Positions 33,360-33,547 of a stretch of 64,000 nt of DNA are shown piece after piece. The notes beneath the pieces were generated by a model that saw only the letters and a list, made by a program, of their open reading frames with translations, ran no database searches and was not told the DNA's origin. Source of the DNA: Corallococcus coralloides DSM 2259 (GTDB lineage: Bacteria > Myxococcota > Myxococcia > Myxococcales > Myxococcaceae); NCBI RefSeq assembly GCF_000255295.1, contig NC_017030.1, positions 4,278,001-4,342,000 on the forward strand. Direction: 5' to 3'. Both the position numbers and the translations under genes were made by a program. Within the stretch, counting starts at the first letter, position 1; each line of letters starts with the position of its first letter.

Positions 33360-33387
33360 GGGGCTGATGGGAATCCCCATCAGCCCC
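33360..33387 (-). terminator. Terminator of the 14-codon gene
   Basis: A perfect 12-bp stem: GGGGCTGATGGG and CCCATCAGCCCC around a 4-nt loop. On the - strand it is followed by CTCTTCTCATTT, moderately T-rich. It lies 64 nt after the stop of the tiny divergent gene and fits it better than any + strand gene. Confidence 0.65.
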
Positions 33388-33450
33388 CCCTCTGACAATC
33401 TGAAACGAGGAACGACCAGCTTCTACAGCTTGAATCAAAACACCCGACGA

Positions 33451-33495
33451 CTAACGCGCCTTCGGGCCGCCGCGAACGTGGATCTTGATCTTCAT
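33451..33495 (-). CDS. 14-residue peptide gene, candidate precursor for the adjacent exporter
   Basis: ATG...TAG encodes MKIKIHVRGGPKAR. A near-perfect Shine-Dalgarno (GAAAGGAGG) ends 6 nt before the ATG. A TTGACA-18-TAGCGT promoter and a downstream 12-bp terminator hairpin bracket the frame, so this looks like a dedicated transcription unit. A TGA lies in frame upstream with no other start codon between, so the start is unambiguous. The peptide is basic and contains Gly-Gly at 9-10. The divergent operon encodes an ABC exporter with an intact C39 peptidase, which cleaves after Gly-Gly. Cleavage there would leave only PKAR, so the GG may instead belong to a processed core. Confidence 0.6.
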   Translation of the reverse strand: MKIKIHVRGGPKAR

Positions 33496-33501
33496 GTCGT
33501 G

Positions 33502-33510
33502 CCTCCTTTC
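33502..33510 (-). promoter_or_regulatory. Strong ribosome binding site of the 14-codon gene
   Basis: GAAAGGAGG on the - strand, fully complementary to the 16S rRNA 3' end over eight bases, at 6-nt spacing. It is stronger than almost any other site in the window. Confidence 0.8.
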
Positions 33511-33517
33511 GAATTGA

Positions 33518-33547
33518 ACGCTACGTGTACTTAAAGCTGGATGTCAA
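33518..33547 (-). promoter_or_regulatory. Promoter of the 14-codon gene
   Basis: Consensus -35 TTGACA (33547-33542), 18-nt spacer and -10 TAGCGT (33523-33518, three of six consensus bases). Predicted transcription starts close to the Shine-Dalgarno, giving a very short 5' leader. Confidence 0.6.

Follow-up and report, generated by a model that had tools for sequence, protein, structure and literature searches.

In the prochlorosins, one conserved leader precedes the hypervariable tails of many precursors encoded in a single genome. Substrates of C39 peptidases, according to the accessible portion of PMC10885120, have leaders that end in GG, GA or GS and carry hydrophobic residues at −4, −7 and −12. 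Among myxobacteria, the available part of PMC8708641 describes the extremely short precursor MNYLH, from which myxarylin is made in a P450-dependent manner, and Corallotide from Corallococcus is a graspetide (PMC13097080, partial text). A strict definition of the RRE, three strands followed by three helices (bbb-aaa) with leader binding in the b3/a3 cleft, is given in the part of PMC12710340 that was available, where 13 recognition motifs are also reported.

Here we describe a locus of the predatory soil bacterium Corallococcus coralloides DSM 2259 that resembles several known systems in part. The window, i.e. the whole stretch of 64,000 nucleotides that was analysed, contains a 14-codon frame, MKIKIHVRGGPKAR, next to a six-gene operon (Table 1). 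The frame starts with ATG at 33495 and its TAG ends at 33451 on the minus strand, with a 6-nt gap between AAAGGAGG and the ATG. The first-pass annotation had listed TTGACA, TAGCGT, a near-perfect Shine-Dalgarno, the 14-codon frame and a 12-bp hairpin on this strand, and we could re-read all of them; it had also placed the peptide back to back with an exporter, and the frame is indeed divergent from the HlyD gene, which is followed by the C39-ABC exporter. The view that this small-peptide gene is tied to the neighbouring exporter, as first proposed, is supported. With a probability of roughly two in three, we read the frame as the precursor-peptide gene of a RiPP-type secretion system, in which modification, cleavage and product are all inferred from sequence.

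Table 1. Features of the locus (positions within the window).
Feature	Position	Strand	Basis or remark
Terminator-like stem-loop, perfect 12-bp stem, 4-base loop	33360..33387	-	sequence and RNA folding
Putative precursor-peptide gene MKIKIHVRGGPKAR, stop included	33451..33495	-	conservation and family comparison
Presumed core PKAR	33454-33465	-	cleavage point after Gly10 inferred
Leader-like part MKIKIHVRGG	33466-33495	-	within MKIKIHVRGGPKAR gene
Shine-Dalgarno AAAGGAGG	33502..33509	-	in 26/26 copies
-10-like element TAGCGT, 18-nt spacer	33518..33523	-	in 24/26 copies, TACCGT in 2
-35 element TTGACA	33542..33547	-	in 26/26 distinct copies
CGCAT-N7-ATGCG block, conserved, between divergent genes	33572..33588	.	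possible operator, function inferred
HlyD-type adaptor	33707..34924	+	Pfam HlyD_3 E 1e-11
C39 peptidase-ABC exporter	34927..37656	+	Pfam; peptidase region about 34966-35322
Second ABC protein without recognised peptidase domain	37653..39764	+	family searches
Outer-membrane channel, NodT/TolC type	39761..41254	+	Pfam OEP E 1.7e-28
U582, unknown 582-aa protein: predicted RRE-like winged-helix domain (about residues 1-100) and helical core	41261..43009	+	structure models, alignments
APH-type phosphotransferase	43018..44031	+	catalytic motif HADLHMHN and DFD present

We defined the peptide family by the pattern M[KQ][IV][KQ]xx[VI][KRQ][GAS]G, requiring a stop codon no more than 65 residues on. In the loci examined, 108 distinct peptides fit this definition, with a variable core after the shared start, and they meet the RiPP criterion of a short gene-encoded precursor with a conserved leader and a variable core; translation was not observed. 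Their leader is also the pattern K-[IV]-K-x-x-V-[KR]-[AG]-G, which the first-pass annotation had given for short bacterial peptides. Since the loci were mostly chosen by leader pattern or U582, conservation of the leader is partly a matter of selection; that of the core features is not. Gly was found at −1 and Val or Ile at −4 in 108/108 leaders, with Gly, Ala or Ser at −2. Also, the C39 domain is fused to an ABC transporter and its Cys22, His102 and Asp118 align with PCAT1, which satisfies the criterion for a C39/PCAT exporter. In the [G/A/S]G leader end, the variable core, the hydrophobic residue at −4, the C39-ABC exporter that retains Cys, His and Asp, and its HlyD partner, the system is like the PCAT/AMS C39-processed RiPPs as far as the accessible portion of PMC10885120 covers them. 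It differs from them in its 10-residue leader with a strand-like, not helical, pattern, in Lys or Gln at −7, and in having a candidate modifying enzyme, U582, of no known family. The canonical leader rule is not met, the 10-residue leader also being too short for a −12 position, and because −7 is Lys or Gln in all 108 peptides, C39 recognition must differ from the canonical one.

The combination of HlyD, C39-ABC and second ABC proteins is also similar to NHLM/NHLP export, whose models were the best family matches of the C39-ABC protein. However, the operon scored far below the cut-offs for TIGR03794, TIGR03796 and TIGR03797 (40/156, 192/853 and 101/709 bits, respectively), and it has no nitrile-hydratase-like leader. 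PADLOC matches of the two ABC proteins (mad3 and mad8) look like shared ATPase similarity and were rejected. With biarylitides/myxarylin, as described in the available part of PMC8708641, the locus shares an extremely short precursor, a tiny expected product and occurrence in myxobacteria; in contrast to these systems, where a cytochrome P450 acts on aromatic residues, no P450 was found among the operon's proteins and the K-x-R cores, PKAR included, have no aromatic residue. The larger R-x-C class of the family is like the prochlorosins in having many precursors per genome behind one leader, but no lanthionine synthetase was found in the window operon, each peptide has one Cys and the leader is of 10 residues. 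Corallotide, a graspetide by the account in the available part of PMC13097080, differs from the present system. Pfam and NCBIfam searches limited to the operon's proteins gave no match to lanthipeptide, graspetide, biarylitide or other known-class synthetases. In the open-licence literature, to which our search was confined and which does not exclude earlier publication, we found no description of the leader, U582 or the system, and no occurrence of six leader-type strings. None of the motifs named in the text of PMC12710340, as far as it was available and with figures and supplements outside its scope, is like the M[KQ][IV][KQ] leader. We filed the system as a RiPP-type peptide with a C39 exporter and not as a member of any named class.

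Two core classes were distinguished, for which the division into short (17 or fewer residues) and long peptides is our own. In the 14 short peptides (13–17 residues), the part behind the leader contains a single Lys and a single Arg, arranged as K-x-R in 14/14; the cores are PKAR (twice), PKARA, PKARS, KARL, KVR, KSR, AGKTR, KGRGV, GGVKAR, LTKIR, MKIR, VLVKGR and LIAVKGR. Among the 94 long peptides (18–53 residues), 92 contain exactly one Cys, and in every one of these an Arg lies no more than two residues from the Cys, R-G-C being the commonest arrangement (73). About 26% would be expected to have such an Arg from composition, which is a rough estimate for related peptides without a formal test. 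Both long peptides without Cys were derived from G046, a genome without a U582 match. The K-x-R, single-Cys and Arg features were not part of the search pattern.

A pattern search for the tiny frame beside C39-ABC exporters of other myxobacteria had been proposed by the first-pass annotation. In 195 Myxococcota genomes, a first leader pattern was found in 29 and a looser pattern in 34, and the control, i.e. the pattern read backwards, in none both times. U582 matched at E 1e-10 in 31 of these genomes and was full-length in 30; the leader pattern was present in 30/30 genomes with full-length U582 and in 4 of the 165 others (Fisher p 2.6e-31, which is indicative only, as genomes were treated as independent though many are related). 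The genome with only a partial U582 relative (G112) had no leader-pattern match. Leader matches without full-length U582 came from G046 (8 times), G094, G125 and G136. Three 133-aa frames beginning MKVKGKV[KR]AG (G125, G127 and G136) were taken as chance matches inside longer frames; the single G094 match was also attributed to chance, its locus itself not having been inspected. Besides, when named genomes were searched with the U582 alignment, 21 loci were obtained, from Myxococcota, Steroidobacter and Paracraurococcus (Paracraurococcus ruber among them), and a family peptide was present at 21/21. U582 occurred in 2 of 396 genomes from the order of Steroidobacter and in 2 of 299 from the family of Paracraurococcus; both counts include the query genome. 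The two additional genomes were G802, where U582 was present with no peptide in the stretch examined, and G395, which has a partial, GNAT-fused U582 relative and in which no peptide was found. When Asn was required at position 6, the stricter pattern matched none of 398 genomes from the phylum of Steroidobacter; it could not match the Steroidobacter peptides themselves and shows specificity only. Many of the genomes compared are close relatives, and counts are not independent. As a genomic association, the linkage of peptide and U582 is strongly supported.

On contig G126:C10 (within L061), 14 leader matches lie in two tandem arrays, and G148 had 27 leader-pattern matches in one genome. Single-Cys peptide genes of G148 at L066, L068, L069, L070 and L071 have no U582 in the 20 kb examined; exporter genes are present at L066, and L068, L069, L070 and L071 show none of the operon's proteins. 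These peptides may be served by one central machinery. Several long-class U582 loci (e.g. L062, L077, L090, L097 and L133) had no exporter gene in the 20–22 kb examined, and some genomes with an exporter-less U582 locus have another one with an exporter (e.g. L061 in G126 and L078 in G133). In G046 (L074, L148-L153), which has no U582 match, eight short frames begin with a leader of this kind; they include both long peptides without Cys, and the other six are not among the 108. Neighbours at the four G046 loci checked with Pfam were mostly unrelated, and one peptide is about 6 kb from an HlyD/C39-ABC pair, in which the C39-ABC part has 50% identity to that of the window over 163 residues. The G046 peptides belong to neither core class and may be a third branch.

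No family for U582 was found in Pfam, NCBIfam, PADLOC or PHROGs, and family searches found no known enzyme relative. We set aside weak single-member matches, to two Pfam families (E 0.12 and 0.19) and to a PHROG without known function (E 0.04). Apolipoprotein A-I, which the U582 alignment matched among PDB sequences (E 4.5e-4), was likewise disregarded; this match falls on a long helical stretch. A first model, based on 11 sequences, had a mean pLDDT of 66. In this model, the best structural matches of residues 1–100 were the C-terminal winged helices of the ribosomal oxygenases MINA53 and NO66 (Z 8.3–10.8); RREs matched with lower scores, namely Z 7.6 for the N-terminal domain of ThcOx, Z 7.0 and 6.7 for leader-bound TbiB1 and Z 6.6 for McbBCD. 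According to the warning of the tool, a structural Z below 8 may mean only a common arrangement, and since all RRE matches are below this value, the RRE reading is probable but not shown. The predicted order of elements in residues 9–89 (b b b b - a b a a; pLDDT 66 overall) may correspond, apart from short extra strands, to the bbb-aaa arrangement in the available part of PMC12710340. The N-terminal domain of U582 is probably RRE-like, and leader binding by it is an inference from models. With this predicted winged-helix domain, U582 is similar to RRE-fused enzymes such as ThcOx, but unlike in these enzymes, the rest of the protein is helical without a match to solved folds at Foldseek E 1e-3. 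The core model (28 sequences) had a pLDDT of 83.6 and a pTM of 0.88; no Foldseek match to solved structures was found at E 1e-3, and the best VIA match was to a designed fusion protein (Z 6.2). As no structural match was convincing, no fold was assigned to the core, which is not thereby shown to be new. Invariant or nearly invariant motifs of U582 are D..GR..GE, C...G.R, MN..A and CAG. A core relative fused to a GNAT acetyltransferase domain was observed (L142/L144); it lies at 263-2236 of L144 (in G395; Acetyltransf_8), adjoins an Acetyltransf_6 gene and is a clue to the chemistry of the core.

It is also possible that the peptide is a secreted signal that is never modified, in which case C39 would trim and export a short basic pheromone, and U582 would serve in sensing, in immunity or as a chaperone. 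The substrates of C39 exporters also include pheromones without modification, e.g. ComC (available part of PMC10885120), and catalysis by U582 is unproven, with a core that matched no known fold. We consider this explanation unlikely, though not negligible. The RRE-like domain is of the kind that binds the leaders of modified peptides, two U582-core homologs without this N-terminal domain (L130 and L131) have no such peptide in the 13 kb examined, and the single Cys beside Arg in hypervariable tails suggests a modification site.

The six genes of the operon, with 44–98% identity to the window proteins, were present in 11/11 complete K-x-R loci (L079-L088 and L135), and the peptides adjoin the operon at each of them. 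In L087, L088 and L135 they are arranged in tandem upstream of HlyD and share its strand, and in the other K-x-R loci they are divergent from it. The APH-type kinase gene belongs to all 11 operons and was detected by tblastn only in K-x-R loci among the stretches searched. At one of the loci, L085, the entire operon is present with 89–98% identity to the window proteins in a record (BNCN01000007.1) under the title Comamonas sp. KCTC 72670, which suggests that the record is mislabelled or contaminated. Fragments of the HlyD gene start adjoin a second peptide copy in L075 (9491-9887) and L084 (1202-1623), as if the peptide and the start of HlyD had been duplicated in tandem. Peptides also serve as cofactor precursors, as with PqqA or mycofactocin, and a very short conserved tail together with an RRE-like enzyme would suit a precursor from which the cell makes a small cofactor, redox or other, and retains it, the exporter being incidental. 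This appears improbable to us, as the operon includes the C39-ABC/HlyD/second-ABC/channel set at 11/11 K-x-R loci checked, and hypervariable multi-copy relatives are ill-suited to one fixed cofactor.

A generic consensus scan of 33100-33720 gave 0 promoters and 0 terminators (0.5 and 0.6 expected from shuffles) because the -10 element is weak and the T-tract is poor, and the set of signals is therefore not decisive from the window sequence alone. The first-pass annotation had regarded such a set as unlikely by chance, a point that is decided by the comparison of 26 copies. As RNA, positions 33345-33400 form an 18-bp stem (−36.5 kcal/mol, z −4.9) that none of 200 shuffles equalled. Rfam gave only two sub-threshold matches in 32800-33800, asX6 (24.3 bits vs 50) and mir-6302, both taken as chance. 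The CGCAT-N7-ATGCG block is upstream of the peptide promoter and is possibly an operator common to the divergent HlyD gene.

A DNA search of 39 genomes gave strong matches in 3 relatives from the same genus as the window. Four of 16 genus genomes, counting that of the window, have a close HlyD gene (at least 96% identity), and 4/4 encode the identical 14-residue peptide; the situation that would have refuted the proposed link, a conserved exporter without conserved frame and Shine-Dalgarno, was not met. The other 12 genus genomes had no match to either peptide pattern, and more distant HlyD relatives (32–33%) occur in G003, G007 and G009, which are genomes without the peptide. The copies compared were all of the K-x-R type and came from the window and another 23 loci that we chose (28 sequences, 26 distinct). 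The spacer between -35 and -10 is 18 nt in 25/26 distinct copies. Only six sites vary in the 14 codons, of which five are synonymous third positions and one is I5/L5, and 4/26 copies have one extra codon (S or A) before the stop. Judged by eye, the hairpin is foldable in all 20 aligned copies, with changes on both sides. In operons with an enzyme of only 53–66% identity, the peptides keep just the leader and the Lys-x-Arg tail. Signals alone left the question undecided, and it is the conservation across 26 distinct copies that confirms the observation. Judging from this conservation, it is strongly supported that the 14-residue frame is a real, coding gene; its transcription and translation are inferred in the absence of transcript or peptide data.

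A short frame followed by a terminator-like hairpin may also recall a regulatory leader peptide or attenuator, in which translation of the frame would control the hairpin and a downstream gene. This is very hard to reconcile with a window frame that points away from the operon, with frames in L087, L088 and L135 that point towards it as tandem copies of different sequence, and with synonymous changes that leave the amino acids, those of the tail included, conserved. That the frame arose by chance and its signals only look genuine, for which the blank generic scan could be cited, is already contradicted by the conservation pattern, i.e. by 26 copies that differ almost purely synonymously, by related peptides next to enzymes of 53–66% identity and by a reversed control without matches in 195 genomes. 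Several findings go beyond what had been noticed initially. U582 tracks the peptide; an APH-type kinase, an outer-membrane channel and a second ABC protein also belong to the operon; besides the leader, the K-x-R tail of the peptide is conserved; and there is a larger sister class with one Cys.

In the RiPP-type secretion system that we favor, the alternating leader M-K-I-K-x-x-V-R would pair, in beta-strand form, with the N-terminal RRE-like domain of U582, and the helical core of U582 would modify the short core peptide, most likely at Arg, which is the best candidate site because it is the only residue common to K-x-R and R-x-C cores. The C39 peptidase of the exporter would cut after [G/A]G (residues 9–10), and the product, PKAR (470.30 Da if unmodified) or a modified form, would leave the cell through the combined action of HlyD, both ABC proteins and the channel of the outer membrane. 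The APH-type kinase would probably be a tailoring or self-protection enzyme, which is a guess from its family. U582-dependent modification, C39 cleavage and the final product are inferred, and no product has been seen. Evidence against this reading also comes from the U582 loci without an exporter in the stretch examined, from the leaders of G046 without U582, from G802 with U582 but no peptide in the stretch examined, from the non-canonical leader and from RRE matches under Z 8 on a model of pLDDT 66. We lean slightly towards the broader proposal of an undescribed RiPP class, in which the new enzyme family U582 acts on the core Arg and which consists of a K-x-R branch and a single-Cys branch. 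If this is true, the products of the K-x-R branch, with 3–7 residues from 13–17-residue precursors, would be among the smallest leader-dependent ones known, and the single-Cys branch would represent hypervariable peptide libraries with up to 27 leader-pattern matches per genome.

Frames this short are usually below gene-calling cut-offs, and such a family is therefore easily overlooked even in well-studied myxobacteria. The recurrence with U582 in relatives suggests that the gene belongs to a so far unrecognised family, whose very small peptides are probably modified and secreted. If our reading is right, this would be a RiPP class with its own leader code and an enzyme family without recognised relatives, and products of three to seven residues could have a role in predation, in signalling or in the inhibition of proteases. 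In the sister class, the variable single-Cys peptides with their common leader would form a natural library, which may be of use in peptide engineering.
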